From Terriglobia bacterium (GTDB taxonomy: Bacteria; Acidobacteriota; Terriglobia; Bryobacterales; Bryobacteraceae), in assembly GCA_020073445.1 (NCBI GenBank), contig JAIQFE010000019.1, positions 186,001 to 250,000 of the forward strand: a DNA stretch of 64,000 bases, written 5' to 3'. Position numbers and translations under genes: made by a program. Shown one piece after another: positions 9,087-62,490 of the stretch. The notes under the pieces are model-generated. The model was not told where the DNA came from. It searched no databases and saw only the letters and a program-made list of their open reading frames with translations. The stretch's first letter is position 1. Each line of letters opens with the position of its first letter.

Positions 9087-9091
9087 GTCGT

Positions 9092-9442: not shown

Positions 9443-9449
9443 GGTTTGG

Positions 9450-9485
9450 ATTATTCCACTAGATGATCTACCTGTCAAGGTAGAT
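9450..9485 (-). promoter_or_regulatory. padR promoter with overlapping operator
   Basis: On the reverse strand, a consensus -35 TTGACA (9473-9478), a 17-nt spacer and -10 AATAAT (9450-9455). The -35 box is the loop of a perfect inverted repeat, ATCTACC-TTGACA-GGTAGAT (9466-9485), a good PadR-type operator. The -10 box ends 7 nt before the start codon, so transcription should begin at or next to the A of ATG. Confidence 0.8.
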
Positions 9486-9544
9486 ATACTGCTGGCTACG
9501 GATTTAGTTACGGTTTTGTTCCAGAAGAATATCGAGGGGTGGAT

Positions 9545-47193: not shown

Positions 47194-47269
47194 GGGGACA
47201 GCCAGCCGATTTCGGCGAGCTGCCGCGGACACCTCCAGGCTGGTTCATCGAAATCGGTAGGCAGTCCCC
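47194..47269. repeat. Intergenic palindromic repeat, family A copy 2
   Basis: 76 bp, GGGGACAGCCAGCCGATTTC ... CGAAATCGGTAGGCAGTCCCC with a ~35-nt centre. It fills the whole gap between two convergent genes: it begins 3 nt after the methyltransferase stop, and its last base is the first base of the alcohol dehydrogenase stop codon complement. Confidence 0.9.
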
Positions 47270-48540: not shown

Positions 48541-48543
48541 GAC

Positions 48544-49617
48544 TTACGCCGAGGCATCGACAGGAGCGTCGATGCGACCGGCCACGATGCGGGCCTCACG
48601 CGTACGGCGGGCGGCGGGACTGAGCACGCGATTCCACCACATGATCGCGCCGGTCACAAACAAGAGTACCGGGAGCAGCCCCAGTACGACCCACAGCGAC
48701 TTCGTTTTTGGTCCCGCGAAGTTCCCGAAATGCAGGTAGTAGATCCAGCGGATAAAATTGTCTCCGGCGCTGCGGCGGATCGGGCGGCGTCCGCCCTTGC
48801 CGAAGTTGAAAGACTTTGGCTGCGATGGCTGCGCGAGTACTGGGGCGGTTGCCGGAGCCGCAAGCGTCACATCCTCAGGCAGCGCGTATTGGATCAGCGT
48901 CGAATAGTGATTGATGATCTTCTGGAACGGCAAGGGGAATGCCAGATACACGCCCGTGATGGCCCACATGAAGATCAGGGCGAAGGACCAGAAACCGATA
49001 GCGCTATGCAGGTCCCAGTTCAGGCGTTTCCAGTTGGATCGAAAATCGACGATCAGGTTGCGGCGCCAGCTCAGGGAGCCGGGCCACCAGACGATCAGGC
49101 CCGTCACGCATAACAACGTAAGAAAGATAGCTCCGATGCCATTGACCTTGCGGCCGGTGTCGCCATACAACAAGTCCGTGTGCAATTTCGCGAGCCACGC
49201 GGCGACGCGGATGGCTTGCGGCACCGAATCGCCCAGATCGGCGCCCGTGTATGGATCGAAGAGCCGCTGCACGCGTTCCTTCCCGTGCTCCATCCAGACT
49301 TCGGTCGCCGTGGTCGGCTGCTTGCCTTCGAAAACGAAGCTGAGGGTATTTTCCGGATACTTCTGCCGGACGATCTTCTTCAGTTCGTCCGCGGGGAGTT
49401 TCGTCCCGCGCACCTGGACGATTCTGGCTCCCGATCCCGCGGACTGGTAGATCTCGTTGCGGAAGACGATTGCGCTGCCCGTGACGCTGATCAGGACCAC
49501 GTAGAGGCCGGTCCCGATGCCGGTCCACAGATGGATCTGGAATAGAGCGCGCCGCAGCCACACGTTTTGCGGGCGGCGGAGCCATCGTTGCCAGAGTGTT
49601 AGTTCGTCGGCGGGCAC
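48544..49617 (-). CDS. PepSY-associated membrane protein
   Basis: 357 residues from GTG 49617, with four membrane helices: about 28-50 (HLWTGIGTGLYVVLISVTGSAIVF), 160-178 (AIFLTLLCVTGLIVWWPG), 205-225 (GFWSFALIFMWAITGVYLAF) and 318-337. Conserved WTG and HTDLLYGDTGRKVNG patterns fit the PepSY-TM/PiuB family, linked to ferric-reductase or iron-uptake loci. A PepSY-like periplasmic domain lies between helices 1 and 2. No siderophore gene is adjacent; the divergent flavin reductase could be functionally related. Confidence 0.85.
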   Translation of the reverse strand: MPADELTLWQRWLRRPQNVWLRRALFQIHLWTGIGTGLYVVLISVTGSAIVFRNEIYQSAGSGARIVQVRGTKLPADELKKIVRQKYPENTLSFVFEGKQPTTATEVWMEHGKERVQRLFDPYTGADLGDSVPQAIRVAAWLAKLHTDLLYGDTGRKVNGIGAIFLTLLCVTGLIVWWPGSLSWRRNLIVDFRSNWKRLNWDLHSAIGFWSFALIFMWAITGVYLAFPLPFQKIINHYSTLIQYALPEDVTLAAPATAPVLAQPSQPKSFNFGKGGRRPIRRSAGDNFIRWIYYLHFGNFAGPKTKSLWVVLGLLPVLLFVTGAIMWWNRVLSPAARRTREARIVAGRIDAPVDASA

Positions 49618-49635
49618 GGGGTGGTTTACGTCCAG

Positions 49636-49650
49636 TCGCTATAATAGCGA
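49636..49650. promoter_or_regulatory. 15-bp palindrome containing TATAAT, between divergent genes
   Basis: TCGCTATAATAGCGA is an inverted repeat (7-1-7). On the plus strand TATAAT (49640-49645) is 10 nt before the flavin reductase ATG; on the minus strand the same site reads TATTAT, toward the PepSY gene. It may be a shared -10 region and operator for both genes. Confidence 0.5.
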
Positions 49651-49655
49651 AATCC

Positions 49656-50267
49656 ATGATCATCGATCCCGCGACCAAAGATCCGTTCGACGTGTACCGG
49701 CTGCTGTCGGGCTCCATCCTTCCCCGTCCGATTGCCTTCGTTTCCACGCTGAGCGCCCAGGGAGTCCGCAACCTGGCGCCTTTCAGCTTCTTCACCGTGA
49801 TCAGCGCGAACCCGCCGGTGATCTGCTTTTGCCCCATGATCCGGGGCGGTGAGCGGCCCAAGAAGGACACGCTGATGAACATCGAGGCCACCGGCGAATT
49901 CGTGGTCAACATCGTCAGCGAGGATTTTGCTGCGAAGATGAACCTCTGTTCGGGCGAGTATCCGCCGGATGTGGACGAGTTCGAGGTCTCCGGCCTGACG
50001 CCCGTACCCAGCGATCTGGTGAAACCGGCGCGCGTCAAGGAATCCCGCGTGAACATGGAATGCAAGCTTCACCAGATCGTACACGTGAGCCCGAAGTTTC
50101 TGGGAGGCAGCCTGGTGATGGGCGAAGTGGTCCGGTTCCACGTACAGGATTCGATGATCAACCAGATTTGCGAGATCGACGCGGATCAGCTGGATGCCGT
50201 CGGGCGCATGGCGGGTCCGGTGTATGTGCGCACGAAGGACCGGTTCGAGATGGTGCGTCCGGCGTAG
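49656..50267 (+). CDS. Flavin reductase-like FMN-binding protein
   Basis: 203 residues from ATG 49656. The flavin-reductase split-barrel is clear: DVYRLLSGSILPRPIAFVSTLSAQGVRNLAPFSFFTVISANPPVICF, KKDTLMNIEATGEFVVNIVSE, MECKLHQIVHV, VMGEVVRFHV. It likely reduces or binds FMN in the cytoplasm for a monooxygenase or for ferric reduction. The ATG is 10 nt after TATAAT and has no Shine-Dalgarno. The stop is followed 7 nt later by a family B repeat. Confidence 0.9.
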   Translation: MIIDPATKDPFDVYRLLSGSILPRPIAFVSTLSAQGVRNLAPFSFFTVISANPPVICFCPMIRGGERPKKDTLMNIEATGEFVVNIVSEDFAAKMNLCSGEYPPDVDEFEVSGLTPVPSDLVKPARVKESRVNMECKLHQIVHVSPKFLGGSLVMGEVVRFHVQDSMINQICEIDADQLDAVGRMAGPVYVRTKDRFEMVRPA

Positions 50268-50376: not shown

Positions 50377-51414
50377 TTATTGCAGTTCTTTGCGTACCAG
50401 GGCAGCGCCGTCGGCCATCGCCTTCATCTTGCCGAAGGCGACTGTGCGAGGCAGGTACTTCAAGCCGCAGTCGGGAGCGATGATCAGGCGGTCAGGGCTG
50501 ATAAACGGCAGCGCGCGGCGGATCCGTTCCGCGACCGTCTCGGGCGTTTCGATATCGTGCGTCGATAAATCCAGCACGCCCAGGAGGACGGTTTTCGTGG
50601 GTAGCTTCTGCAGCACCGAACAATCAAGCTTGGACTGCGCCGTTTCGATCGAGACCTGCTGTACGGGAGTTTGCTCCAGTTCGGGGAGAAACGAATAGCC
50701 TTCGGGCCGGCCGGCCACCAGCGCGGCATAGCCGAAACAGATGTGGACCACGGTGGTTCCCTTTACACCGTCGAGTGCGCGATTGAGCGCGGCAACGCCG
50801 TATTCGCGAGCCTTATCGGGCGAGGACTGCATCCACGGCTCGTCAATCTGAACGTAATCCGCGCCGGCGGCGAACAGGTCCTTGATCTCTTCGTTGACGG
50901 CGGCCGCGTAGTCCAGAGCCACCGCTTTCTCGTCCTTGTAGAATTCGTCCACGGCCTGCTGCGTCATGGTGAAGGGGCCGGGCACGGTGATCTTGATCTT
51001 CCGGTCGGTATTGGCCCGCAGGAACTGAATATCGCGCACCTGGACGGCGTGCTTCCGCCGGATCTTGCCTTTAATGCGCGGGACCAGGACTTCGTGGCCG
51101 CTGCGGCTGATGACCTTTCCCGGATTATCCAGGTCGAGACCGTCGAGCGCCGTGGCGAAGCGGTTGGAATAGCTCTCGCGGCGCATTTCGCCGTCGGTCA
51201 GGATGTCCAGGCCGGCGCGCTCCTGGTCGCGGATGGCGAGCAGCGTGGCGTCATCCTGAGCCTGTTCGAGCCACTGCTCTCCAACGCGCCACAGGTCGGC
51301 GGCTCGGATACGGGGCGGCATCTGCTTGCCGAGCTTGTCGCGATTAATCAGCCAGTCGGGTTGCGCGTAAGACCCGACCAAAGTGGTAGGAAGCAGAGTT
51401 ATAGTTGAGGGCAA
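50377..51414 (-). CDS. MetE C-terminal/epoxyalkane-CoM-transferase-like enzyme
   Basis: 345 residues, TTG 51414. It has the (beta/alpha)8 zinc-thiolate methyltransferase fold: TTLVGSYAQPDWL, GLDILTDGEMRRESY, KITVPGPFTMTQQAVDEFY, ADYVQIDEPWMQSS, then HxC in VVHICFGYA and a later Cys in IIAPDCGLKYL, the zinc ligands of the family. At ~345 residues it lacks the MetE N-terminal half, so it is either a core-type methionine synthase or a transferase acting on another thiol or substrate. It ends the 14-gene reverse-strand run and is 33 bp from the DUF6152-like gene upstream. Confidence 0.8.
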   Translation of the reverse strand: MPSTITLLPTTLVGSYAQPDWLINRDKLGKQMPPRIRAADLWRVGEQWLEQAQDDATLLAIRDQERAGLDILTDGEMRRESYSNRFATALDGLDLDNPGKVISRSGHEVLVPRIKGKIRRKHAVQVRDIQFLRANTDRKIKITVPGPFTMTQQAVDEFYKDEKAVALDYAAAVNEEIKDLFAAGADYVQIDEPWMQSSPDKAREYGVAALNRALDGVKGTTVVHICFGYAALVAGRPEGYSFLPELEQTPVQQVSIETAQSKLDCSVLQKLPTKTVLLGVLDLSTHDIETPETVAERIRRALPFISPDRLIIAPDCGLKYLPRTVAFGKMKAMADGAALVRKELQ

Positions 51415-51447
51415 TTCTTACCGGGCCAGTTTATGGATTTGAAAATC

Positions 51448-51819
51448 TTAGGACTTGATCATGCGGCCGTCGTTCAGCTTGACCAGCGAGCTGAGCATGG
51501 CCGGAGCGCCGCTCTTGGCGGCCCCGCCGGTGCAGGTGATTACGTCACCTTCTTTTACCGTTTCGCGGGTCCAGCCGTACGACTTCAGGTGGTTGAGGCT
51601 CATCATTTCTACTTCCCACTCTACGACTTTGCCGTCATCCCCTTTGACCTCAAGGTAGATGTAGGCATGCGGATTGGTCCACTCGAAGCGCTTCACGGTT
51701 CCGGTGACTGTGGAAGGGTTGGCCATGTTGTACATGGTGGTGGAGTGGTGCGCGGAAAGCGGAGTGGTGGTCACCAGCACGCCCAGCCCGACGAGTACGG
51801 CCAACAGTCGAGATTTCAT
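51448..51819 (-). CDS. DUF6152-like secreted protein, copy 1
   Basis: 123 residues from ATG 51819, with GAGGA upstream. A signal peptide ends TTTPLSA, giving a predicted mature N-terminus of His-His-Ser. Then TMYNMANPSTVTGTVKRFEWTNPHAYIYLEVKG and LNHLKSYGWTRETVKEGDVITCTG, the DUF6152 pattern. A conserved His is in TNPHAY. Function unknown. Two paralogues lie in the same gene run (51867 and 53841). Confidence 0.85.
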   Translation of the reverse strand: MKSRLLAVLVGLGVLVTTTPLSAHHSTTMYNMANPSTVTGTVKRFEWTNPHAYIYLEVKGDDGKVVEWEVEMMSLNHLKSYGWTRETVKEGDVITCTGGAAKSGAPAMLSSLVKLNDGRMIKS

Positions 51820-51866
51820 TCGATCAATCCTCCTCAAACCTTGTCAGATATATAGTATCAAGCCGG

Positions 51867-52286
51867 TCACTGCTTGGCGGGGCCGGGGGTTGCGGTCTGC
51901 TGACCCCGTTCCGTCATCGTAAGTCCGTCCGCGAAAGTAACCGAGACAAACTGGCCGCCGATATCGCCATTGACCATCGGATGGACCCCAAAGGTCGCCT
52001 TGTCGCCGGGCTTCAGCATGGTCGATTTCCACCCTGCGCGGGCAAGAATGCCGGGGGCGGTCATTTCCAGATTCCAGGTTTCGGTGACGCCTTTGCTGTT
52101 GACCACTTCAACTTCGATCCAGGAATGGGGGTTTGCCCATTTGAATTGCTTCACGGTTCCCGTAATCGAAATGGTCTTGGCGCGATCGAAGCCGTTCATC
52201 GAGTGGTGGGCGTAGGCCGACGTCACCAGCCCCAGGCCGGACATTAACGCAATCGACAGTGTGCAGGTTCTCAGAAAAGTCTTCAT
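51867..52286 (-). CDS. DUF6152-like secreted protein, copy 2
   Basis: 139 residues. The signal peptide ends TSAYA, so the mature protein would begin His-His-Ser. GFDRAKTISITGTVKQFKWANPHSWIEVEV and LEMTAPGILARAGWKSTMLKPGDKATFGVHPM follow the same plan as copies 1 and 3, with the conserved NPH. GGGGAG precedes ATG 52286. Periplasmic; function unknown. Confidence 0.86.
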   Translation of the reverse strand: MKTFLRTCTLSIALMSGLGLVTSAYAHHSMNGFDRAKTISITGTVKQFKWANPHSWIEVEVVNSKGVTETWNLEMTAPGILARAGWKSTMLKPGDKATFGVHPMVNGDIGGQFVSVTFADGLTMTERGQQTATPGPAKQ

Positions 52287-52301
52287 GTTCGTTCTCCCCT
52301 C

Positions 52302-53087
52302 TTAGCGGCCGGTGTGCTCCGCCTTGACGCTCGGCATGTGCTCATTGAGATCGGGCAGGCACGATGCCTCGGTGATGTCCGTGTCGTCCAGCCGCCGGAA
52401 ACGCTTGGTCCACTTCCATTCGCCCACCCAGCTCTTGGGGTCGGTGGCCGTGTACTCCACTTCCATGGTGGCGCCCTTGTCAATCAAACGGATGCGCTCA
52501 ATCATCTGGAACTTGTCCGTGAGCGGGATTCCGCCGTCCAGCCAGTGATGATCGTCGACGAAGTAGCGGGTATCCACCACCAGCGCGTCGTTTTCCCAAT
52601 GCCCGATGGATTCGCCGCTGAAGCTGGGCACGACGACATCCGGATCGGAATGCGGCCTTCCATCCAGGTAGATGATGCGGATACTGTTCATGAAGCCGCT
52701 GATCATGTAGATCGCCGTGGGCAACTGGATCATGGCGATGGGCCACACGCGTGTCATGATCACGGGCAATCCGGCGGGCCAGCAATTGCCGATGTCGTCC
52801 TGATAAACCTTGCCCTCGGCGGTCGCCTTACGCGCGGCATCGAAGTGCGCTTGCGCAAAGGGAGTGAGCTTAAATCCATCGGGCGGAGAAAACCGGAAGT
52901 TGTTGTTCTGGCCGCCTCCGTGTTGCCAGGTCCCGGTGAGATCGAACGGCGGCTTGGGCCGGCTCTTGGCGATGTTGGCGGGAGCCAGCGCGCCTTGCTG
53001 GGGCGGCGGTGGCGTCTGACCCACCAAGGCAAGCGCGGCGCCGAAGGACAGAACGGCGAGAAGTGGAGCCTGGAATCGCATCATCAT
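52302..53087 (-). CDS. Secreted protein of unknown function, 'DLTGTW' family member 1
   Basis: 261 residues with a signal peptide (LAVLSFGAALALVGQ). PFDLTGTWQHGG starts the mature domain; later IYLDGRPHSDPDVVVPSFSGESIGHWENDALVVDTRYF and FQMIERIRLIDKGATMEVEYTATDPKSW. The block G-x-W-x-x-D-x-L-V-V-D-T is shared with three other genes here (53084, 56496, 57547). This is a beta-rich, probably periplasmic protein of no known activity. It overlaps the next upstream gene by 4 bp. Confidence 0.8.
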   Translation of the reverse strand: MMMRFQAPLLAVLSFGAALALVGQTPPPPQQGALAPANIAKSRPKPPFDLTGTWQHGGGQNNNFRFSPPDGFKLTPFAQAHFDAARKATAEGKVYQDDIGNCWPAGLPVIMTRVWPIAMIQLPTAIYMISGFMNSIRIIYLDGRPHSDPDVVVPSFSGESIGHWENDALVVDTRYFVDDHHWLDGGIPLTDKFQMIERIRLIDKGATMEVEYTATDPKSWVGEWKWTKRFRRLDDTDITEASCLPDLNEHMPSVKAEHTGR

Positions 53088-53827
53088 TTATCCTTTATTT
53101 TCATGCGGACCACGCCTTTTTCATCGACGTACTCACGATTATTGTCGCAGACGAATTCGACCATCTCGTAGTCCGGCATGCGCCGGTAAGCCAGCGTGTA
53201 GACCATGGGCTTTTCGAGCACCACCGGGTCCTCGATAGTAATCTGGTCGTGCAGGACGTCGGGCGTGATGAGCTTGATTCGCTCGGTGATGTGCATCTTT
53301 TCGCTGTGCGGCATCCCGCGGTAGCCGTTCACGGTCGGTTTGATGCCGATGGTATCCACCACCAGAGTGTCGCCGTCCCACTTTCCTGCCGAGCGGCCGT
53401 AGTATCCGGGCGCGACGTCGTCCAGCGGGGCCTGCGGCCGGTCCAGATACACCCGGCGCACTTCGCTGAACGCCTCCGAGATGATCGTCACCTGCTTGGC
53501 GGTTTGAATGAACTCCACCGGATAAACTGCCACGGCCATCATGGTCGGCACGCCGTAGGGGATGCACTGGGATCCGGCGGTGGCCAGTTGCTCGCCGCGC
53601 TTGGTGGCCTCAGCTTCGGCCGTGCGACGGGCTTCGTAGGGCTTGGCGTACTCCGGTTTCAGCACCAGTTGCCCGGCAGGAGGCGGTGCGATCTTGGGAT
53701 CTCCGCCGCGTCCGCCCGCGAACGGGGCCCAGACGCCGGTAAGGTCGGGAGTCTTGGTCGCTTGCGCAGGAAGCAGCGTAACACAAGGGAATACAACAAC
53801 GAGTACAGCGTACAAAATCGTTTTCAT
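53084..53827 (-). CDS. Secreted protein of unknown function, 'DLTGVW' family member 2
   Basis: 247 residues, signal peptide LYAVLVVVFPCVTLLPAQ. PDLTGVWAPFAGGRGG, RRVYLDRPQAPLDDVAPGYYGRSAGKWDGDTLVVDTIGIKPTVNGYRGMPHSEKMHITERIKLITPDVLHDQITIEDPVV and a C-terminal EFVCDNNREYVDEKG. It shares the GxWxGDTLVVDT...HSE..H..ER block and the C-terminal C-x-N-N-x-x-Y motif with members 3 and 4. Position in the run suggests co-expression with the DUF6152 genes. Confidence 0.82.
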   Translation of the reverse strand: MKTILYAVLVVVFPCVTLLPAQATKTPDLTGVWAPFAGGRGGDPKIAPPPAGQLVLKPEYAKPYEARRTAEAEATKRGEQLATAGSQCIPYGVPTMMAVAVYPVEFIQTAKQVTIISEAFSEVRRVYLDRPQAPLDDVAPGYYGRSAGKWDGDTLVVDTIGIKPTVNGYRGMPHSEKMHITERIKLITPDVLHDQITIEDPVVLEKPMVYTLAYRRMPDYEMVEFVCDNNREYVDEKGVVRMKIKDK

Positions 53828-53840
53828 GAGGCCGCCTCGA

Positions 53841-54230
53841 TTACTTCTGGGGTCCGCGCCCGGGCCCGTTTCCTAATACTTTTCCGGTCGGCAAGGTGGC
53901 TGTATTCAGAAATCCGCCCGCGAGACCGGTTTTCAGCGGATTGATGACCAGCGTGGTCTTATCGCCCTTTTTCAGGCTGCTGAATTTCCAGCCGCTCTGC
54001 TGAAGGATGCTGGGGCTGCCCATCTCGATGCTCCAATGCTTGACGGCGCCACTTTCGTCCGGGACATCGATCTCGATGTAGGAGTGCGGGTTGGTCCATT
54101 CAAACGACGTCACCGTGCCGGTGATCGTGATTTGCTTGGTGGTATCGAACATGGTGAAGGAGTGGTGCGCCAGGACCGGAATCGCCACCGCGATTGCGGC
54201 TGCTAAGACGTTGAGCAGTCTGGATTTCAT
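53841..54230 (-). CDS. DUF6152-like secreted protein, copy 3
   Basis: 129 residues from ATG 54230. The signal peptide ends IPVLA, so the mature form would begin His-His-Ser. FTMFDTTKQITITGTVTSFEWTNPHSYIEIDV and IEMGSPSILQQSGWKFSSLKKGDKTTLVINPL match copies 1 and 2. The C-terminus is Gly/Pro-rich (GNGPGRGPQK). It is 23 bp downstream of the second DUF6644-like gene. Confidence 0.86.
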   Translation of the reverse strand: MKSRLLNVLAAAIAVAIPVLAHHSFTMFDTTKQITITGTVTSFEWTNPHSYIEIDVPDESGAVKHWSIEMGSPSILQQSGWKFSSLKKGDKTTLVINPLKTGLAGGFLNTATLPTGKVLGNGPGRGPQK

Positions 54231-54253
54231 GGCGAATAATAGTATCACACCGG

Positions 54254-54646
54254 CTATCTGTATGCAATCCCTCGCGAGGCCAGAATCACTCCTGCCCAAA
54301 GCACCAGGGAGAGAGCCATCGCCAGGCGGGCGTGCCGCGCCGGTAGAAGTGCGGCCAGGCCGATCACGACCAGCAAGGCCATCTTCGCGCGAAAGAACTG
54401 GCTGTAGTACAGGCGCACCGGTTCGGACCAGAACAGCAGTGCACCCGTGAACACCAGGACCGAGAGCCCGATCCAGCGGAAGCGCCTCAGCTTGACATCG
54501 TCTACGAGAACCGAGCCTCCGAACCAGGCGATGGCCAGCACGTGAATCGCTCCGATGATGGGAACAGCCCAGGTGGACTGGCTGAGATCCAGGCGCAGGG
54601 ACGTGTCCTGAAGCCAGCGCGCGAGTTGAAGCAGCGGATTAAACAT
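54254..54646 (-). CDS. DUF6644-like small membrane protein, copy A
   Basis: 130 residues with four predicted membrane helices (about 26-45 AVPIIGAIHVLAIAWFGGSVL, 58-74, 88-104, 108-124). The His in IGAIHVLAIA and the basic loop between helices are shared with copy B, which overlaps its start by 8 bp. This is the DUF6644 kind of small membrane protein often found with DUF6152. It might be a haem- or quinone-interacting or metal-handling membrane part; that is inference. Confidence 0.75.
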   Translation of the reverse strand: MFNPLLQLARWLQDTSLRLDLSQSTWAVPIIGAIHVLAIAWFGGSVLVDDVKLRRFRWIGLSVLVFTGALLFWSEPVRLYYSQFFRAKMALLVVIGLAALLPARHARLAMALSLVLWAGVILASRGIAYR

Positions 54647-55016
54647 CGAAGTCGGCGATCGCTCGAGCCGCCAGGACCACTGAAGTCCATAGCGCCAGGG
54701 AGAGGACAGCGGCGAAGCGAGTTCCGCGGCGGTGGAGCGTGAAGTGCGCCGCGAGGGCTACAACCAGCAGGGTAATCTTCACGTGGAATGCCGGATTGTG
54801 CAGATAGCGCGTGGTATCGGAGAGAAACATCACGGCGCCGGTGACGAGCATCGTGGCAAGGCCGGCGTGGGTCCACATTTTGAGATGGCGGGTATCCGGG
54901 ATCTCTAGACCCAGCGTGTGCAGGTCCTCCAGGACGATGGTTCCCACAAAGGCCGCCAGTCCGATGACATGGATCGACTCGACGACGGGAAAGATCCAGG
55001 AGTTTTCGAGAGCCAT
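54639..55016 (-). CDS. DUF6644-like small membrane protein, copy B
   Basis: 125 residues with four predicted helices (8-28 FPVVESIHVIGLAAFVGTIVL, 46-65, 78-92, 100-119). ESIHVIGLAAF aligns with GAIHVLAIAWF of copy A, and HVKITLLVVALAAHFTLHRR with AKMALLVVIGLAALLPARHA. Several histidines (IHVIG, WTHAG, FHVK, AAHFTLH) could be ligands. ATG 55016 directly follows the monooxygenase stop (TAA-ATG). Confidence 0.75.
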   Translation of the reverse strand: MALENSWIFPVVESIHVIGLAAFVGTIVLEDLHTLGLEIPDTRHLKMWTHAGLATMLVTGAVMFLSDTTRYLHNPAFHVKITLLVVALAAHFTLHRRGTRFAAVLSLALWTSVVLAARAIADFDV

Positions 55017-56489
55017 TTAGACCAGGGGCGGCGCGCCTTCGCCACGCCACGCGATGAATCCGTCAGGTCGGACCAGCACAGCCCCGGATGGCGTAATGCC
55101 GTAGGCGGCGGGAAACGCGGGCTCCGTGATGCGATGAACCTGAATATCGGTTATTCCGTTCCACTGCGGACCCGCAAGTAAAACATAATCGCGGCCCAGT
55201 AAGTCCAGCGTCGAACAACCCTCACTCAGCCAGAGGTGCGGCGCGCGCGATCCCGGGCGGCCTTTCGATTCGTTCGGATGCTCGTGAAGCTGGCCATCGT
55301 AGCAGTATCCAAGCTCGACGTTCATATCGTGCGCGACCGGCTGAAATCCTTTGGATGCGAGATAGGGAGCCGTGCGCGTGACATAGCGCGAATAGGCCTG
55401 CTCCACCGTGAATTCGCCAACGGGGCGGCGCTCGCGCTCGTAGGTATCCAGCAATTCCGGCGCCGCCTTGCCTTGGAGCACCGAGGCTAGTTTCCACGCC
55501 AGGTTTTGCGCGTCCTGCACGCCGGTGTTGCCGCCGAAGCCTCCGTAGGGTGGCATCACATGCGCCGAGTCGCCCGCCAGGAAGATATTTCCTTCGCGAA
55601 ATCGTTCGGCGGTATTCGCCTCGGACTGCCAGCGCATCACGTCTTCGATCTTAACGGGGATGTCGTCGACCCCCAACGCGGCGTGGAGCAGATCCAGGCA
55701 GCTCTGATCGGTGAGTCCGGCGGACACATCCGTGTTGGGGTGCTCGGGATCGCCCAGCGCAATCACCGCCAGGAAGCCGGATGTGAACGGGATCTCGATA
55801 CGGAAGAATCCGCGGAGGATTGGGTTGATCACGTAGATCACGCTGAGATTCCGGCCGCGCAGAAGAGGTCCGACGTCGCCACGGAAATAGATGGTGATGC
55901 TGTTCGAGAAAACTCCCCGTCCCTGCATGGGGATCCTCAGGCGATCCCGGACGCGACTATGTGCGCCATCTGCGGCGATCATGTAGCGCGCGCGAACTGT
56001 GGCGGTCTCGCCGGTATCGCGATGCTTGATGTGTGCCGTGACGCCCGTGTCATCTTGCTCGAAGGACGTCATCTCCGTGGCGAAACGCAGATCGGCGCCG
56101 AGTTCCTCGGCTCGCTGCTTCAGCAGTGGCTCCAGCAGACTTTGGGAAATGAACACGCGCTCGCAGGGACTCAGGTCGCGGATGCCTTCATTGAGGTTGG
56201 CGATGTAGTACGCGATTTCTTTGCCGGCCAGCGATTCCACGCCCATGATCGCGCCATCCTGGACGAACTGCTCGGCGGACCTGCGACGCACGATCTGTTC
56301 CACACCCACGGTTCGGAAGATTTCCATGGTGCGCTGGGTGATTTGCGCGGCCCGCGGATGAATGGCGGTTCCGCGATGATGCTCCACCACCAGCGAGCCC
56401 ACGCCGTAGTGGCCGAGCAGCATCGCGCTGGACATGCCGACCAGGCTGCCACCGACGATGAGGACGGGGACTTCGATCGTATCCGGCAA
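55017..56489 (-). CDS. FAD-dependent aromatic-type monooxygenase
   Basis: 490 residues. FAD-binding Rossmann motif VLIVGGSLVGMSSAMLLGHYGVGSLVVEHH (GxGxxG-like), the DG motif region ARYMIAADGAHSRVRDRLRI, and the GD motif GDSAHVMPPYGGFGGNTGVQDAQNLAWKLA. The C-terminal thioredoxin-like lobe is short. This is the PheA/TfdB/PgaE (polyketide, phenol) class A flavin monooxygenase group, a cytoplasmic NAD(P)H enzyme for hydroxylating aromatic compounds. There is no signal peptide, in contrast to its secreted neighbours. Confidence 0.9.
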   Translation of the reverse strand: MPDTIEVPVLIVGGSLVGMSSAMLLGHYGVGSLVVEHHRGTAIHPRAAQITQRTMEIFRTVGVEQIVRRRSAEQFVQDGAIMGVESLAGKEIAYYIANLNEGIRDLSPCERVFISQSLLEPLLKQRAEELGADLRFATEMTSFEQDDTGVTAHIKHRDTGETATVRARYMIAADGAHSRVRDRLRIPMQGRGVFSNSITIYFRGDVGPLLRGRNLSVIYVINPILRGFFRIEIPFTSGFLAVIALGDPEHPNTDVSAGLTDQSCLDLLHAALGVDDIPVKIEDVMRWQSEANTAERFREGNIFLAGDSAHVMPPYGGFGGNTGVQDAQNLAWKLASVLQGKAAPELLDTYERERRPVGEFTVEQAYSRYVTRTAPYLASKGFQPVAHDMNVELGYCYDGQLHEHPNESKGRPGSRAPHLWLSEGCSTLDLLGRDYVLLAGPQWNGITDIQVHRITEPAFPAAYGITPSGAVLVRPDGFIAWRGEGAPPLV

Positions 56490-56495
56490 GAGTCA

Positions 56496-57536
56496 CTACT
56501 TAACGAACAGTTTGCTGTAGTCCTTATTGTTCTCGCACACGAACTCGTCGATCTTGTTCAAATCCGGGCGAAGCGGGAAAGTCCGGCTGACCGTCCACGG
56601 CCTCACGAAGACGTTGGGATCCTCCAACGTGGCTTCGTACTGGAGCGTGTCGTAATCGGGACGGCTAAAGCGTTCGACAATATGCAGCCCTTCGCTGTGC
56701 TTGAAGCCGCTCAGTTCCGTTTTCGTGTTGAAGCCGACGATGTCGATGACCAGAGTGTCGTCTTCCCAATGTCCAACAGCATCACCCATCCAGGTTGGAT
56801 CGGGATCGACGGGATGCGTGGCTCCGTTGGTTGGGACGATTCGAAAAACGCCGGGGTATTCATGCATGATGACCGCGTAGCTGGGCGTTTGCAGGATCTG
56901 GAATTGATACGGAACGCTGTAGGCAGCCGGTCCTGCGATCGGCATGCAGTCCGAAAGAGCGCCGGCATCGTTGGGTCCACGGACGACGCGATATTTTTCC
57001 ATGCCCGGTTTCAATTCGGGTCCCGCCGGAGCAGCGGCTCGGCCCCCTCCTGGTGCTGCGCCTCTGCCACCCGGTGCGCCGCCGCCGCCAAAGCTATACA
57101 CGCCGGACAGATCGGGTTTGCCGTTCGCCAGCCTTGGCACTTCTTTCTTCATCTCGGTCGGCGCGGCGGACGCGCTGTTCACAGGAGTGGTGCCGGGCAC
57201 TGTCACTGTGACTTCTTTCGTCAGCACGGAGTTGTTCGGCCCGGTGACGGTCAACGTATAGGTCGTGGTGGCTTTGGGACTCACCTGCCGGCTGCCGCGA
57301 GGCGTTACCTTGCCGAGGTCGGGACTGATGGTGACTGCATTGGGGTTTTCCGTCGCCCAGACTAAAGTTGCGCTTTGGCCGGACTGAACGGTGCCTGGCT
57401 CCGTGCGGAATTCCGTGATCCGGGCTGGGGGCTGCACGCGTGGCGGTCTGGGAGGAGCAGCGGGCGCTGCCGCGGGCGGAGGTGCTTGTGCTGCCGCGAG
57501 AGAAGCACCTATCAACATGATCAGCGTGAATCGCAT
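56496..57536 (-). CDS. Secreted Ig-like + 'DLSGVY' domain protein, member 3
   Basis: 346 residues from ATG 57536 (MRFTLIMLIGASLAAAQ signal). An Ig-like domain at about 30-125 (PGTVQSGQSATLVWATENPNAVTISPDLGKV...TTTYTLTVTGPNNSV), a Gly/Ala/Pro linker, then the unknown domain: KPDLSGVYSFGG, DPTWMGDAVGHWEDDTLVIDIVGFN, GFKHSEGLHIVERFSRPDYDTLQYEATLEDPNVF, DEFVCENNKDYSKLF. It shares the whole plan with member 4, which lies 10 bp upstream, so the pair is a tandem duplication. Frame extension upstream of 57536 is not used. Confidence 0.84.
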   Translation of the reverse strand: MRFTLIMLIGASLAAAQAPPPAAAPAAPPRPPRVQPPARITEFRTEPGTVQSGQSATLVWATENPNAVTISPDLGKVTPRGSRQVSPKATTTYTLTVTGPNNSVLTKEVTVTVPGTTPVNSASAAPTEMKKEVPRLANGKPDLSGVYSFGGGGAPGGRGAAPGGGRAAAPAGPELKPGMEKYRVVRGPNDAGALSDCMPIAGPAAYSVPYQFQILQTPSYAVIMHEYPGVFRIVPTNGATHPVDPDPTWMGDAVGHWEDDTLVIDIVGFNTKTELSGFKHSEGLHIVERFSRPDYDTLQYEATLEDPNVFVRPWTVSRTFPLRPDLNKIDEFVCENNKDYSKLFVK

Positions 57537-57546
57537 GGGTAATCTC

Positions 57547-58608
57547 CTACTTCTTCTCAAAGAACTTGCTGTAGTCGTGATTATTCTCGCAGATGAACTC
57601 GTCCACCTTGGTGAGATCCGGACGCAGCGGGAACCCGCGCACGATAGTCCACGGTTTTTCGAACACATTGGGATCCTCGACGGTCGCTTCGTAATCCAGG
57701 TTGTTGAAATCGGTGCGGTGGAAGCGCTCGACCACATGCAGCGCTTCGGTGTGCTTAAAGCCGCCCGGGAGCTCGGTCTTGTCGTTGAATCCGATCGTGT
57801 CGACCACCAGCGTGTCGCCATCCCAGCGCCCGACCGAATCGCCCATCCAGGTGGGATCGGGATCGGCGGGATGCGGCGTGCCGTCTATCGGGATCACGCG
57901 GAACAGGTGCGGATATTCGTATACGATCACCACGCGGTCGCGGCCCTGTACGATTTCCCACTGATACGGGACGAAGTAGGCTCCGGGCACGCCGGTGGGG
58001 CTGCACGTGGAGTATTGTCCGGCATCGTCGGGCCCGCGGACGATTTTGAATTTCTCGGCGCCCTTCTTCAGCGTCGCCGCGATCGGAGTATTCTGGCCAC
58101 GGACCGCGACGCCGCCGAAGTTGAACGAACTCGAATTGTAGACTCCCGAGAGATCCGGCTTGCCGTCGGCCATGCGGGGCGTGGGTTTTGGAGCAACGGC
58201 CTCAGCCGCCGGCGCTGCGGTTGCGGCGCGTTCGACCGTCCCGGCGACCGTGATCTTCAGCGAGCGTGTCACGTCGCCATTCGGTCCGCGCACGGTGAGT
58301 GTGTAGGTAGTGGTCGCCGAAGGCTTCACCTGCTTGCTGCCGCGAGTGGTGACGGTGCCGAGGTCGGGTTCTATAGTGACCGAATTCGGATTCTCCGTGG
58401 ACCAGACCAGCATCGCGGTCTGCCCCGGCTGAATGGATGCCGGAGTCGCCTTGAAATCGACTATGCGCGCAGGAAGCCGGGCGGCCTGTTGATAAGCGCC
58501 GGAGGGTCCTTGTTTCGCCTGATCTTGTTTGCCTTGGCCCTGGGTCGTCTGGCCGGCCAGCGCGGATGCCAGAACTGCTGCCACGGTCGCGCAACGGAGT
58601 GCTACCAT
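57547..58608 (-). CDS. Secreted Ig-like + 'DLSGVY' domain protein, member 4
   Basis: 353 residues from ATG 58608, with AGGAGGG as ribosome-binding site. Signal AAVLASALAGQ; Ig-like domain (PASIQPGQTAMLVWSTENPNSVTIEPDLGTV...TTTYTLTVRGPNGDV); unknown domain KPDLSGVYNSSSF, DPTWMGDSVGRWDGDTLVVDTIGFND, GFKHTEALHVVERFHRTDFNNLDYEATVEDPNVF, DEFICENNHDYSKFF. It is the likely first gene of the monooxygenase segment, 32 bp after the acetyltransferase gene. Confidence 0.84.
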   Translation of the reverse strand: MVALRCATVAAVLASALAGQTTQGQGKQDQAKQGPSGAYQQAARLPARIVDFKATPASIQPGQTAMLVWSTENPNSVTIEPDLGTVTTRGSKQVKPSATTTYTLTVRGPNGDVTRSLKITVAGTVERAATAAPAAEAVAPKPTPRMADGKPDLSGVYNSSSFNFGGVAVRGQNTPIAATLKKGAEKFKIVRGPDDAGQYSTCSPTGVPGAYFVPYQWEIVQGRDRVVIVYEYPHLFRVIPIDGTPHPADPDPTWMGDSVGRWDGDTLVVDTIGFNDKTELPGGFKHTEALHVVERFHRTDFNNLDYEATVEDPNVFEKPWTIVRGFPLRPDLTKVDEFICENNHDYSKFFEKK

Positions 58609-58640
58609 CGCTACCCTCCTCAACTTCTGTCCAGTATATG

Positions 58641-59456
58641 TCAAGCCTTCAGGCTGGTATCGGGGAATGCCCGATACCAGTACGCGATCTTGCAGACTTC
58701 GCGGAATCCCGCGCGCTGATACATTCCATATCCCATGCCTGAGGCAAGCAACACTGCCTGCGTGGCTCCATTCTCTGATGGGCGCTCGCGCGCGAAACGA
58801 ACGGCGTGGGCCAGCATCGCGCTGCCGATGCCTTTGTTCCGCTCTTCCTTGAGCACGCCGACATCGTAGAATCCGGCGACGCCGTCGTTCAGAAACATGC
58901 TGCACGCACCGACTGGGCGATTTCCAGCCGCCAACGCGACGAAATCGAAGAATCGTTTGGGCCACTGGGCGGCCATGTGGGCCAGCCGGTTCAGTTCGTG
59001 ACGGCGGATGGCGGTCGTGATCGGTCCGAAGTACGGATGCGGATGGCGCAGATACATGGAGTGATGCGGCGTCTGGAGGATCCGGATGCCTTTGGGTGTT
59101 GCGATCCGCGGCAGTTTCGCGAGGTCGCAGCACATTCCGGGAAATCGCTTGCGGCAGCGAAACCCGCGGTCTTTCAAGAGATCTGCGATGTTGCCAGGTG
59201 TGGCGTCTTCATCGACCCAGAATCCCGCGCCACGTCCGTGCTGTGTGTAGCGTTTGAGAATCTGACCGAGCCGGCGCCCGGCTTTGTTCGCATCGAATCG
59301 GAGAGACATTCCGCTGTTGGACCAAGTGGTCCCGTTGCTCAGCATCCAGGTGATGTCGGGGTCGCGATGAACCTCGACACCCGGAACGTCGGATTGTGCG
59401 GCGTACCAAGCTTCCAGATTGCTTGTGATCACGCTGCCGAGCGTTGGGGACGCCAC
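58641..59456 (-). CDS. GNAT-family N-acetyltransferase
   Basis: 271 residues from GTG 59456. The C-terminal ~130 residues carry the GNAT fold: RPVGACSMFLNDGVAGFYDVGVLKEERNKGIGSAMLAHAVRFAR (motif A, R/Q-x-x-G-x-G/A as RNKGIGSA) and GMGYGMYQRAGFREVCKIAYW (motif B). The N-terminal ~140 residues are less conserved. Substrate unknown. The GTG overlaps the stop of the upstream gene (TAGTG). Confidence 0.82.
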   Translation of the reverse strand: MASPTLGSVITSNLEAWYAAQSDVPGVEVHRDPDITWMLSNGTTWSNSGMSLRFDANKAGRRLGQILKRYTQHGRGAGFWVDEDATPGNIADLLKDRGFRCRKRFPGMCCDLAKLPRIATPKGIRILQTPHHSMYLRHPHPYFGPITTAIRRHELNRLAHMAAQWPKRFFDFVALAAGNRPVGACSMFLNDGVAGFYDVGVLKEERNKGIGSAMLAHAVRFARERPSENGATQAVLLASGMGYGMYQRAGFREVCKIAYWYRAFPDTSLKA

Positions 59457-59914
59457 TATTTCCTGGCCGCCCGCGCTTTGCCCTGCGCCGACATCCGGTG
59501 TTCCTTGCCGCGAGTCAGCGTCTTGATGAACTCGACCCGCCGGAAGCGCACGGCAGAAAAGTCTTCATCAATCGCGACCATTCTGACCGGCTCGAATCCC
59601 GCATCGCCCAGAACCTTCCAGCCGTTATCGCGGTTGATCTCGGACTTGTAGTTCTTGGAGGAGCCCTTCGGGTATGCGAACCAGACGACAGCATCGCCTT
59701 CCGCTTTCTTGGCGATCGCCTTCCCGAGTGTGTCGACTTCTTTCTGCTTCGTGACGAACGCTAACGAAAACTCGACCTTGTTGACGTTTTTTAGATCGTG
59801 GTGAACGGTCACGCCGCGCAGCGCCTTCAACTCAGGCTCGAAACTTTCCGGCGCATTGAGAACCAGGATGTCTTTCTGATCCTTGAGATTGAGTTTGCCG
59901 AAGGTAGACGCCAT
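59456..59914 (-). CDS. DUF3052-like protein
   Basis: 152 residues, no signal peptide. VLNAPESFEPELKAL, FSLAFVTKQKEVDTLGKAI, DAVVWFAYPKGSSKNYKSEINRDNGWKVLGDAGFEPVRMVAIDEDFSAVRFRRVE: this is the DUF3052-like layout with the WFAYPK...W...G.E.V..VAID.DWSA pattern. The C-terminus is basic. Function unknown. Sits between the aldehyde dehydrogenase (8 bp away) and the acetyltransferase. Confidence 0.7.
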   Translation of the reverse strand: MASTFGKLNLKDQKDILVLNAPESFEPELKALRGVTVHHDLKNVNKVEFSLAFVTKQKEVDTLGKAIAKKAEGDAVVWFAYPKGSSKNYKSEINRDNGWKVLGDAGFEPVRMVAIDEDFSAVRFRRVEFIKTLTRGKEHRMSAQGKARAARK

Positions 59915-59922
59915 AGCTCCTC

Positions 59923-61389
59923 CTAGAGCTTCACTGTGACGGACTTCACCTGCTGGTAGCAGAGCAGCGCTTCGACGCCTTTCTCACGCCCGTAGCCGCT
60001 CATCTTATAACCGCCGAAAGGCGTCTCAATCATCGCGCCGGTCTGATATTCGTTGACGTAGACTTGTCCCGCTTCGAGCAGCGCGGCGACCCGGAGCGCG
60101 CGGCTAACGTCGCGCGTCCAAAGCCCGGCCGCTAGGCCGTACTCCGAGTCGTTGGCGATACGGATGGCGTCGGCTTCGTCCTTAAAGCGGATCACGCCCA
60201 TCACCGGCCCGAAAATCTCTTCGCGCGAGATGCGCATGTCATTGTGAACATCCGTGTAAACCGTCGGAGTGACGAACCAGCCTTTCTTGAGCCGTTCGTC
60301 ACGTGGGAGTTCGCCGCCGATGGCCGCCTTCGCGCCCTCCTGCTTGGCGATCTGATAATAGCTCTGGACTTTTTCGTACTGTGCCTTCGTCGCCAGAGGA
60401 CCGACCGAGGCGTCCGCCTCCGGGCCAACGCTGATTTTCTCGACTTCCTTCACCAACTTCGCGACGAACGCGTCGTGGATGCTGTCCTGTACCAATAAAC
60501 GGGTGCCGGACGAACAGATCTGGCCGCAGACGCGCGTGAATATGTTCGCGGCGTTGGCCGCGGCCTTGTCCAGATCGGCGTCCTCGAAGATGATGTGCGG
60601 CGACTTCCCGCCGAGTTCGAGCGTCAGCGGGAGGATGCGATCGGCAGCGATATGGCCGATCTCCTTACCGGCTCGCAGACTTCCGGTGAACGCCACCTTG
60701 CGGACCAGCGGGTGCGATACCAGCGCCGCGCCGGTCGTGCGGCCCGCGCCCAGCACCACGTTGAAAACGCCCGGCGGCAATCCGCATTCCTCGCTGACGA
60801 TGCGGGCAAACTCCACTGTCGTCGCCGACGTTTCCTCAGACGGTTTCACGACGACAGTGTTTCCGGCCGCGATGGCCGGCGCCGACGCGCGCGCGGCCTG
60901 GTTGAGGGGAACATTCCAGGGCGTGATGATGCCCACCACTCCGTACGGCTCGCGGCGGGTATAGGCGTGATATCCGGCGCCGACGTTGAGGGTCTCGCCG
61001 TGGTTGGTATTGACCAATCCGGCATAAAACTCAAAATAACGAGCCGCGGTTTCGAGCCCGGCAGGCGTCTGCGATGCGGGCGTTCCGTTTTCACGCGATT
61101 CGATTTCCGCCAGCAGCTTCACGTGCTTGCGGATGGCACGCGCCATGTCGAGCATCACCTTGGCGCGATCCATCGGGCGGCGGTCGCGCCACTCGGGAAA
61201 CGCGGCCGCGGCGGCCTTTACCGCGGCATCTACGTCGGCATCATTGCCGTTGGCGACTCGTGCGATGCGATCGCCGGAACGCGGGTCGAGCTTGTCGAGA
61301 TAGTCGCCCGACTTGGGTGTGACGCTCGTGCCGGCGATGAAATGATTCAGGACGTAGGGAGTGATCTCGGTTTCAACGGCGGTGGGCAT
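59923..61389 (-). CDS. Aldehyde dehydrogenase
   Basis: 488 residues of the NAD(P)-dependent ALDH superfamily. The catalytic Cys292 is in GQICSSGTR and the general base Glu258 in LELGGKSP, with the usual 34-residue spacing. Substrate region and N-terminus (YVLNHFIAGTSVTPKSGDYLDKLDPRSG) resemble 2-hydroxymuconic or betaine-like aldehyde dehydrogenases, which often act in aromatic or side-chain degradation. Cytoplasmic. It heads the continuous gene run down to 50377; a family A repeat lies between it and the upstream VWFA gene. Confidence 0.92.
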   Translation of the reverse strand: MPTAVETEITPYVLNHFIAGTSVTPKSGDYLDKLDPRSGDRIARVANGNDADVDAAVKAAAAAFPEWRDRRPMDRAKVMLDMARAIRKHVKLLAEIESRENGTPASQTPAGLETAARYFEFYAGLVNTNHGETLNVGAGYHAYTRREPYGVVGIITPWNVPLNQAARASAPAIAAGNTVVVKPSEETSATTVEFARIVSEECGLPPGVFNVVLGAGRTTGAALVSHPLVRKVAFTGSLRAGKEIGHIAADRILPLTLELGGKSPHIIFEDADLDKAAANAANIFTRVCGQICSSGTRLLVQDSIHDAFVAKLVKEVEKISVGPEADASVGPLATKAQYEKVQSYYQIAKQEGAKAAIGGELPRDERLKKGWFVTPTVYTDVHNDMRISREEIFGPVMGVIRFKDEADAIRIANDSEYGLAAGLWTRDVSRALRVAALLEAGQVYVNEYQTGAMIETPFGGYKMSGYGREKGVEALLCYQQVKSVTVKL

Positions 61390-61497: not shown

Positions 61498-62490
61498 TCA
61501 AAATCCGCCGCGCGGACGATACCCAGGCCGCGCCTGCACGCGATACTTCTTGCCCGCGTCCGACACCACCTCGACGCTGATCTTGCGGAATCCTTCGTTG
61601 GGGTTCGTCTGCGGATAATACGTGACTGTGTAGGAATTCCCCAGATCCTCGCGAATCGCTTCGAACGCCTCCACCTGCTTCTGCCAGCTGGTGGCGAAGT
61701 AGGACTTGCCGCCCGTGCGCGTTGAGATGCGTTTGAACACGTTGGCGGAAATCGGGTCCTTGGCGATTTCATTGGTCGAGATCACGTAGATCGGAATCCC
61801 TTCGTCCTCGGCCACCGCGCGGACGTCGTCCGGCGCCACCATGCTGGCGTTGTCGGGACCGTTCGAGAACACGATCACCACTTTGCGTCCCGGAACTTTC
61901 GCCGCATCGCGGATGGTCAGTAGCAGCGCGTTGTAGAGCGCGGAATCGTCGCCCGCCACCGCGTTCCGCAGGCCGCCGATCGCGACGTTGCGCTCCTTGC
62001 CCAGTTCAGCCGCGCGCGTCAGATTGCGCGAATAGGTGTAGACGGCCACCGAATCGGCGCGATCCAGGCCGCGGATGAAATCGGCGATCGCGTCCGAGGC
62101 ATAGACGAAGCCGCGATACATGTAGTTGCTGGTGTCGAACAGCACGAAGACGTTCGTGCCCACGAACGCGTCCGAGCGCGTTTCAATGCCGGAGCCCGGG
62201 GCGGCGGCGCCACCCGTAACCGCGGTTTCCACCACGATCGGTTTCGTCGATCCGTCGGCGGCGACCTCCACCGGCGGCTTGTTCCCCTCCGAAAACGTCG
62301 TGAGCTTTTGCGGGATCCCGTCTTCCGAGATCCGGAAATCCGAGGGCTTCAGGCCGTTGACGTAGTGCCCTTTGTTGTCGGTGATGGTGAAGCTGAGCAC
62401 CACCAGGTCTACCTTGATGCGAAACGTGGGGCGGTCCTGAGCCGCTGCCAGAGCCACCACCAGCAGGATAAAACCAAGTCTGCGTATCAC
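61498..62490 (-). CDS. VWFA-related secreted protein (acidobacterial type)
   Basis: 330 residues from GTG 62490, preceded by a perfect GGAGGTGATC ribosome-binding site. Signal RLGFILLVVALAAAQ. An N-terminal beta domain (FRIKVDLVVLSFTITDNKGHYVNGLKPSDFRISEDGIPQKLTTFSEG) leads into a VWFA domain (FVGTNVFVLFDTSNYMYRGFVYASDAIADFI...VVIVFSNGPDN); the MIDAS DxSxS is degenerate (DTSNY), so metal binding is doubtful. This is the acidobacterial VWFA-related family. The GTG overlaps the upstream stop (GTGA), so it is coupled to the large unknown gene. Confidence 0.88.
   Translation of the reverse strand: MIRRLGFILLVVALAAAQDRPTFRIKVDLVVLSFTITDNKGHYVNGLKPSDFRISEDGIPQKLTTFSEGNKPPVEVAADGSTKPIVVETAVTGGAAAPGSGIETRSDAFVGTNVFVLFDTSNYMYRGFVYASDAIADFIRGLDRADSVAVYTYSRNLTRAAELGKERNVAIGGLRNAVAGDDSALYNALLLTIRDAAKVPGRKVVIVFSNGPDNASMVAPDDVRAVAEDEGIPIYVISTNEIAKDPISANVFKRISTRTGGKSYFATSWQKQVEAFEAIREDLGNSYTVTYYPQTNPNEGFRKISVEVVSDAGKKYRVQARPGYRPRGGF

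Follow-up and report, generated by a model that had tools for sequence, protein, structure and literature searches.

A run of reverse-strand genes in a 64,000-nucleotide stretch of an acidobacterial genome (Terriglobia bacterium, GenBank assembly GCA_020073445.1, contig JAIQFE010000019.1, positions 186,001 to 250,000; hereafter the window, on contig C24 of this 6.58-Mb genome) joins oxidative enzymes to three families of envelope proteins, namely DUF6152, DUF6644-like membrane proteins and a probably secreted family, with four members in the run, that we named DTL after its motif GxWxGDTLVVDT. We are highly confident that DUF6152, DTL and DUF6644 form a functional unit. Taken as a whole, the run resembles a local oxidation operon to which an envelope cassette of wide occurrence has been joined, more than it does a single dedicated oxidative system, because the oxidative enzymes, among them a class A FAD monooxygenase (FMO) and an aldehyde dehydrogenase (ALDH), are not general partners of the cassette.

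The recurrence of the envelope families is apparent within the genome itself, where DUF6152 gave 62 matches, around which 61 genes were called. Profiles grown from the window proteins recovered 61 DUF6152, 83 DTL and 16 DUF6644 genes among 857 called genes (the stretches around the DUF6152 matches plus the window). The whole genome yielded 143 DTL match rows, among them gene fragments and paired domains of single genes; gene calling in 86 stretches gave 134 DTL genes, two of them counted twice across stretch ends, leaving 132, which is a lower bound because 150 of the 214 DTL candidates of this genome were scored. A DTL gene adjoins on the same strand, or is fused to, 49 of the 61 DUF6152 genes (4 fusions); fusion and adjacency counts were made with clean profiles lacking fusion sequences, since a DTL profile that included them cross-matched plain DUF6152 proteins. 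DUF6644 and DUF6152 stand together in six same-strand runs, which contain 14 of the 17 DUF6644 genes called. Furthermore, the distances between paralogues were correlated across adjacent DUF6152-DTL pairs, both in this genome (r=0.691; 44 pairs; permutation maximum 0.352, with 0 of 2000 permutations reaching the observed value) and in other genomes (r=0.662; 70 pairs; 0 of 2000 permutations), indicating that the pairs duplicate and diverge as units.

The same association was found in other Acidobacteriota. Loci from 79 other-genome matches (drawn from the best 80 of at least 516 relatives, and mostly labelled Bryobacterales, Bryobacteraceae, Terriglobia or Acidobacteria) contain 105 DUF6152 genes, 77 of which adjoin or are fused to a DTL gene (5 fusions); a sixth fusion, with overlapping domain calls, stands outside the 77. 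Two loci, L077 and L101, were left out of the DUF6152 and DTL alignments and kept in the adjacency counts and the co-divergence analysis; the record behind L077 is titled Bordetella parapertussis (a metagenome bin), its DUF6152 protein is 65% identical to the acidobacterial query, and the label may be wrong. Across the phylum, with at most 16 DUF6152 and 10 DTL candidates scored per genome, DUF6152 was detected in 39 of 297 genomes and DTL in 33 of 247. If the 247 genomes are taken to be G000-G246, 31 carry DUF6152 and 30 of these also carry DTL; the remaining one, G171, gave no DTL match with 10 of its 56 candidates scored. Three genomes carry DTL alone, two at an E-value of about 1e-4 and one in an assembly that is 75% complete.

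The cassette also extends to another phylum. Searched against 72,556 plasmid records, the window DUF6152 and window DTL proteins matched the same eight, all from Sphingomonadales (six Novosphingobium, one Sphingobium and one Croceibacterium). Seven loci from six of these records were profiled, leaving out the loci of NZ_CP103870 and NZ_CP117418 as well as L204, which overlaps L196; six of the seven contain a DUF6644 pair and six of the seven a TonB receptor (assigned by Pfam in L196, L198, L199, L200 and L202, and in L203 by likeness to L202). With 152 and 644 standing for the two DUF families, the gene orders are DTL, TonB receptor, then 152, DTL, 644, 644, 152 in PP1Y; 644, 644, DTL, 152 in N. 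humi; 152, 152, DTL, TonB in Croceibacterium; DTL, 152, DTL, 152, 644, 644, TonB in Sphingobium and Novosphingobium KACC 22771; and 152, DTL, 644, 644, 152, with TonB and another DTL gene upstream, in KACC 22771 and N. humi. The proposal in the preliminary description of this DNA that the run includes a membrane and periplasmic part built from uncharacterised families is thus borne out, since both Acidobacteriota and Sphingomonadales show DUF6152, DTL and DUF6644 in repeated association. DUF6152 and DUF6644, once also with DTL, stand together in Rhizobiales and Azospirillum as well. When the Sphingomonadales proteins were used as queries, DUF6152 gained one plasmid record, from Sinorhizobium mexicanum, and DTL gained none; the order there is 152-DTL-644-644, with a divergent DTL protein (98 bits by the DTL profile) and DUF6644 genes named by eye. 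Four further loci, rhizobial or from Azospirillum, have DUF6644 immediately downstream of DUF6152, and their gene listings show no DTL gene. The DUF6152 proteins of these four loci score 28-82 bits by the DUF6152 profile, and in every one AHH stands where cleavage is expected. DUF6644 on its own is more widely distributed on plasmids (56 records).

These results bear on the simplest alternative, namely that the genes have no common function and lie side by side through lineage-specific duplication. The genome of Solibacter usitatus, described as paralogue-rich in an excerpt of PMC3174227, would agree with such an origin, but we regard that alternative as extremely unlikely, given that DUF6152 and DTL match one identical set of eight plasmid records from a different phylum, and given the fusions and the co-divergence.

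The neighbours of the plasmid cassettes include catabolic genes. In PP1Y these are LigA and LigB ring-cleavage subunits, a formyl transferase domain, MTHFR, a GCV_T protein, Meth_synt_2, ALDH and the TonB receptor; the O-demethylases of lignin catabolism belong to the GCV_T family, and the neighbourhood looks like a methoxy-aromatic cluster by its gene content. PP1Y, like the window, combines the cassette with an ALDH and a MetE-like protein, the two MetE-like proteins being 23% identical. The Sphingobium cassette is flanked by luciferase-type monooxygenases, sulfonate genes and TonB, that of N. humi by CoA and electron-transfer-flavoprotein genes, and no catabolic cluster was apparent at the Croceibacterium locus.

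The enzymes of the window run behave differently from the envelope families. FMO, ALDH, the GNAT protein and the protein labelled DUF3052-like each occur once among the 857 called genes and have no relative at E 1e-10 in the 79 DUF6152 loci of other genomes; they were rejected as regular partners of the secreted families. Close relatives of the FMO (61-90% identity) are present in 3 of 30 related genomes, and eight more have weak matches. In G309 (L152; FMO 90%), Fe-ADH, PepSY and flavin reductase genes and all genes from the MetE-like gene through the fourth DTL gene follow in order at 71-97% identity, after which the contig ends. In G304 (L153; FMO 72%) the order is ALDH, PEMT-like, DTL, DTL, FMO, two unrelated genes, DUF6644, DUF6644, without DUF6152 or MetE; the two unrelated genes, encoding 124 and 457 aa (7973-9721 of this locus), separate the FMO from the DUF6644 pair. 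In the third relative, G300 (L154; FMO 61%), the FMO is found without the cassette, adjoining a gene that resembles an alpha/beta hydrolase, with one DTL-like gene about 3.4 kb away. The expected co-localisation in relatives therefore holds for the gene order in G309 and the core in G304, and fails in G300.

A single dedicated oxidative pathway, with all parts serving one substrate, had been the view of the preliminary description. The gene order shared with G309 as far as its contig reaches and the six-gene core retained in G304 speak for it; yet this genome has the secreted families in dozens of other settings, the FMO of G300 lacks them, and the enzymes are not general partners of the cassette, and we consider such a pathway quite unlikely. 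The nearest PDB relatives of the FMO are RubL, GrhO5 and RdmE, followed by 2,4-dichlorophenol and 2-hydroxybiphenyl hydroxylases, and this proximity to named aromatic hydroxylases would suit a role in aromatic hydroxylation. The nearest FMO on a plasmid (60% identity), on pACHL02 of Pseudarthrobacter chlorophenolicus (L201, 7989-16065), lies near maleylacetate reductase, thiolase and CoA-transferase genes; together with the solved relatives, this neighbourhood would suit the FMO as a phenol hydroxylase.

The layout of the run was examined at the level of individual genes. The 14 genes between 61389 and 50377 all lie on the reverse strand as previously described, with intergenic gaps of -8 to +47 nt (8, -1, 32, 10, 6, 0, -8, 23, 13, -1, 15, 47 and 33 nt, starting from the ALDH end); some gene starts were taken from our own gene caller, and the start of the gene at 56496 was re-chosen by hand (ATG at 57536). 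The ALDH is not the first gene, as had been supposed: a VWA-domain protein (61498..62490; acidobact_VWFA, TIGR03436, 144.5 bits against a cut-off of 81.25), 108 nt upstream of it, and a 1176-aa gene (62487-66017, extending past the window end) continue on the same strand, and the run therefore comprises 16 genes. Membership of the VWA-domain protein in the unit is uncertain. Among the 545 same-strand runs called in 1.49 Mb of this genome (86 stretches) it ranks first in length and alone reaches 14 genes, in a non-random sample of stretches picked for cassette families, whose ends cut runs. A terminator-like hairpin lies downstream of the last gene (50301-50284, reverse strand; consensus scan) and is not above shuffles; the scan returned 7 terminator-like sites versus 12.2 in shuffled sequence and 6 promoter-like sites versus 3.6, so that the hairpin and the promoter sites say little about the transcript. 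Rfam and tRNA scans gave no matches, nor did a PHROGs search with three proteins. Adjoining the run (47269-50267) are Fe-ADH and PepSY_TM protein genes and a convergent flavin reductase gene, whose products are 89-95% identical in G309, which makes the conserved block wider than the 14-gene run. A CarboxypepD_reg protein with a TonB plug domain is encoded at 26440-28749, about 22 kb away from the run.

The previously assigned gene contents were for the most part recovered by Pfam, namely ALDH, GNAT, FAD monooxygenase, three DUF6152 proteins and a MetE-like protein. The ALDH (59923..61389; Aldedh 567 bits, cut-off 23), which heads the core retained in a relative (76% identity in L153), scores under the cut-offs of specific NCBIfam families (among the 25 of 45 listed); a PDB search with it at an overly strict limit gave no match. 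It is followed by a 152-aa protein (59456..59914), whose label as DUF3052-like was not confirmed, with no Pfam family matching at E 0.01, and by a GNAT-type acetyltransferase (58641..59456; Acetyltransf_7, 37.6 bits). Two DTL genes come next (57547..58608 and 56496..57536), both identified by our own profile and both encoding proteins that by eye are probably secreted and Ig-like in their N-terminal part; the product of the former is 90% identical in L152 and 60% in L153. The FMO (55017..56489; FAD_binding_3, 313 bits with a cut-off of 22; Rng_hyd_C, 44 bits) precedes a pair of membrane proteins (54639..55016 and 54254..54646; 20.5 and 22.8 bits), each with a conserved His. Both members of this pair score below the Pfam cut-off of 27 for DUF6644 (PF20349), and are for this reason called DUF6644-like; a profile made from this genome groups them with 14 others. 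The three DUF6152 proteins (53841..54230, 51867..52286 and 51448..51819) all belong to PF19649 (115, 108 and 92.9 bits; curated cut-off 27) and have no other Pfam match. The first is followed by the other two DTL genes (53084..53827, with the motif GxWxGDTLVVDT, and 52302..53084, by our own profile), both products probably secreted. The last gene (50377..51414) encodes a 345-aa protein resembling the MetE catalytic domain (Meth_synt_2, 129 bits; PDB 3rpd, 209 bits). Neither the name DUF6152 nor DUF6644 appears in the open-access literature searched, a scope that lies outside supplements and other journals.

To consider what DUF6152 may do, we examined its conserved residues and predicted structure. 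A signal peptide was recognised by eye in the protein at 53841..54230, and the mature form of DUF6152 proteins, including all three in the window, probably starts with His-His, judging from the residues that precede the expected cleavage site. The His-His motif is present in 57 of 61 proteins of this genome, 102 of 105 from the other-genome loci and 12 of 13 in a third set (where the last miss has a truncated start), and Ala directly precedes it in 166 of the 171 motif-bearing sequences. An xPH motif is similarly conserved (60/61, 103/105 and 12/13), and across 81 aligned sequences (78 of 94 eligible proteins plus the three window proteins) H22, H23, N47, P48, H49 and G89 are invariant. The AlphaFold2 model of the protein at 53841..54230 has a mean confidence (pLDDT) of 89.6 and the element order b-b-b-a-b-b, which together with the structural matches gives a predicted OB fold: the Foldseek matches listed (50 of 1061) are OB-domain proteins (LysRS, PriB, SSB), with a best E-value of 8.8e-4, the sole one listed below 0.001. 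A sequence search of the PDB gave as its best row a biofilm adhesin at E 0.0013, with no stretch passing on its own.

A histidine brace is a copper ion held by an N-terminal His and a further His (PMC10952591, in excerpt), and DUF6152 contains the sequence ingredients of one in a predicted first-mature His-His and the conserved xPH His. His occupies the first mature position in 2.6% of a set of secreted proteins, and two DUF families with an N-terminal His are reported to bind metal, nickel above all (available text of PMC12537917). We lean towards metal binding by DUF6152 from its conserved residues, and the metal would most likely be copper. Three explanations of what such binding would serve can be weighed here. 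The first would make DUF6152 a secreted copper oxygenase, mononuclear and of the histidine-brace type, on a new (OB) fold, for which DTL would hold the substrate, so that lignin- or humus-derived compounds are oxidised outside the cell. The brace ingredients, the DUF6152-DTL fusions, the catabolic neighbourhoods in Sphingomonadales and a number of paralogues that would fit a substrate-diverse enzyme all agree with it, but no recurring redox partner was seen, and the DUF4198 and DUF6702 proteins are weakly or not significantly active according to the text of PMC12537917 at hand; we hold it to be very unlikely. The second, metal acquisition, we think doubtful although it is the strongest of the competing explanations: DUF6152 would catch copper, nickel or iron, DTL would bind a metal chelate, DUF6644 would carry metal through the inner membrane, and the catabolic neighbours would be present for the metal that their enzymes require. 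It draws on the N-terminal His-His and internal His, on the DUF6152-DUF6644 pairs that rhizobia and Azospirillum carry with no DTL gene (a siderophore ABC transporter lies near one of them), on weak DUF6644 matches to DUF2214, UPF0093 and CopD, and on the secreted N-terminal-His proteins that are known metal binders, one family of which stands beside TonB receptors (PMC12537917, same excerpt); against it, 60-odd paralogues in a single genome are many for one metal, and the probability of a profile comparison with CopD is 0.6%.

The third explanation, which we favour, is an envelope module that captures both metal and a hydrophobic or phenolic ligand, and it depends on the other two families. 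The AlphaFold2 model of the DTL protein at 53084..53827 (pLDDT 81.5) is predicted to resemble barrels of the retinoid- and fatty-acid-binding type: the 50 Foldseek matches listed are such proteins (CRABP, CRBP, FABP), with a best E-value of 4.9e-4 and TM-scores of 0.47-0.63 by target and 0.28-0.37 by query. On the strength of this model the chances that DTL binds a ligand are evenly balanced, and the ligand would probably be hydrophobic or phenolic. In the DTL alignment (74 of 77 eligible proteins plus the four window proteins) Cys88 is invariant and Cys227, E182 and D200 are conserved at 90% or more, making a disulphide likely. When 78 DTL proteins were compared one by one with Pfam, three stray families appeared with one member each (best E 0.036); the NCBIfam comparison gave zero matches at E 0.01, and no PDB chain scored below E 0.68 against the DTL profile. 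The DUF6644 proteins share H35, G68, K88, W117 and R125 (13 sequences), and among 14 members weak Pfam matches were found to DUF2214 (8/14), UPF0093 (2/14) and CopD (1/14; E 3.7e-4); a PDB sequence search gave no useful match. Assignment of DUF6644 to CopD (PF05425) was not supported, as the hhalign probability of 0.6% was obtained against four CopD domains; the sole PF05425 match in this genome is a DUF6644 gene, below the cut-off.

Several further features of the DTL family were observed in this genome. A second ALDH gene adjoins a DTL gene elsewhere (L161), and four tandem DTL genes on one strand occur without DUF6152 in L155 (G000 C58, contig positions 34609-37693). Some DTL proteins have two domains (491, 510 and 521 aa) or a long other part (597 and 623 aa; L016, L018, L033, L037 and L043). 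A small protein family (126-137 aa; four members found, in L010, L013, L023 and L028) lies in all four cases in a same-strand DTL or DUF6152 run, and three of its members are upstream of a DUF6152-DTL fusion. The run partners of DTL genes in this genome are too mixed to name a substrate.

Taken together, the run may be an operon-like cluster that oxidises a phenol-like compound with an FAD hydroxylase and an ALDH, as assigned by family, and into which the widespread envelope cassette has been built. Secreted DUF6152 would hold a metal ion via its mature His-His and the near-invariant xPH His, the secreted DTL barrel would take up a hydrophobic or phenolic ligand, as its fold suggests, and the DUF6644-like pair would be the inner-membrane partner, as suggested by sequence and linkage. 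The cassette would then capture the ligand in the envelope in a metal-dependent manner and hand it on; in Sphingomonadales the TonB receptor would import the ligand, and in the window the cytoplasmic FMO and ALDH would oxidise it. We advance this full reading tentatively, at somewhat less than even chances. Several observations weigh against it. A DTL gene is not adjacent to 12 of the 61 DUF6152 genes of this genome or to 28 of the 105 in other genomes (one of the 28 being the sixth fusion), and 73 of the 134 called DTL genes lie outside any same-strand run with DUF6152, with 61 inside. No catabolic family clearly recurs near DUF6152 in this genome; TonB-type and PQQ-type families (by eye) are common and not clearly enriched there (p=0.046 and 0.83, uncorrected), and the window run has no TonB gene. 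One of the three close FMO relatives, in G300, is without the cassette. The Foldseek E-values for both DUF6152 and DTL are modest, as are the DTL scores by query length; co-divergence reflects a shared history of neighbours and does not show contact; and no assay of DUF6152, DTL or DUF6644 proteins was found.

By its working principle the cassette resembles known N-terminal-His metal binders and pairs of periplasmic and membrane proteins such as CopC/CopD. CopC and CopD are encoded in one operon, the former being small and periplasmic with His as its first residue, the latter spanning the membrane several times. The cassette appears to share this arrangement (CopC in an excerpt of PMC10952591) but differs in that the window DUF6152 proteins have no other Pfam family and CopD is matched, below the cut-off, by 1 of 14 DUF6644 members. 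DUF6152 is comparable in other respects to CusF. The latter is a periplasmic OB-fold copper chaperone with His, Met and Trp ligands; DUF6152 would likewise be a small secreted OB fold with a metal site, and the Foldseek matches listed (50 of 1061) do not include CusF. Like the retinoid- and fatty-acid-binding barrels, the DTL model has one strand, two helices and then strands; unlike them, DTL proteins are probably secreted and longer, and carry one invariant and one nearly invariant Cys. DUF4198, DUF6702 and the anglerases, treated in the accessible part of PMC12537917, share with DUF6152 a first-mature His after a signal peptide, further possible metal ligands and membership of previously uncharacterised families; DUF4198 occurs with TonB genes and anglerases with a membrane permease domain, which are like the partners of the cassette. 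Their folds are described as beta-sandwiches, whereas DUF6152 has a predicted OB fold and two leading His and is paired or fused with DTL; the main text of that paper, as far as it was available, does not name DUF6152. The TonB receptor DdvT, in a lignin-dimer operon of Sphingobium SYK-6 (PMC6874591), provides a further parallel, since there too, in Sphingomonadales, genes of aromatic catabolism stand next to that of an outer-membrane receptor; the portion of that text describing the operon names no DUF6152, DTL or DUF6644 component.

At its most far-reaching, and in our judgement unlikely, DUF6152-DTL could represent a new class of secreted metal-dependent machine, an OB-fold histidine-brace protein with a calycin-type barrel, sometimes fused, present in some 190 genes of one soil bacterium and shared across phyla, in which each pair is tuned to a different environmental compound and either oxygenates or captures it before catabolic enzymes act. 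An estimated 3% of the genes of this genome encode two probably secreted families of no known function, one of which, DTL, has neither a Pfam nor an NCBIfam model (61 DUF6152 plus 132 DTL minus 4 fusions, relative to about 6,200 genes, a total reached by extrapolation from the 1400 genes called over 1.49 Mb). The conserved His-His start of DUF6152 leads to a concrete prediction that can be checked cheaply, and because named strains of Novosphingobium, Sphingobium and Sinorhizobium carry the cassette, its function is accessible to knockout tests. Unexplained expansions of this kind may partly explain why soil Acidobacteriota are hard to understand.

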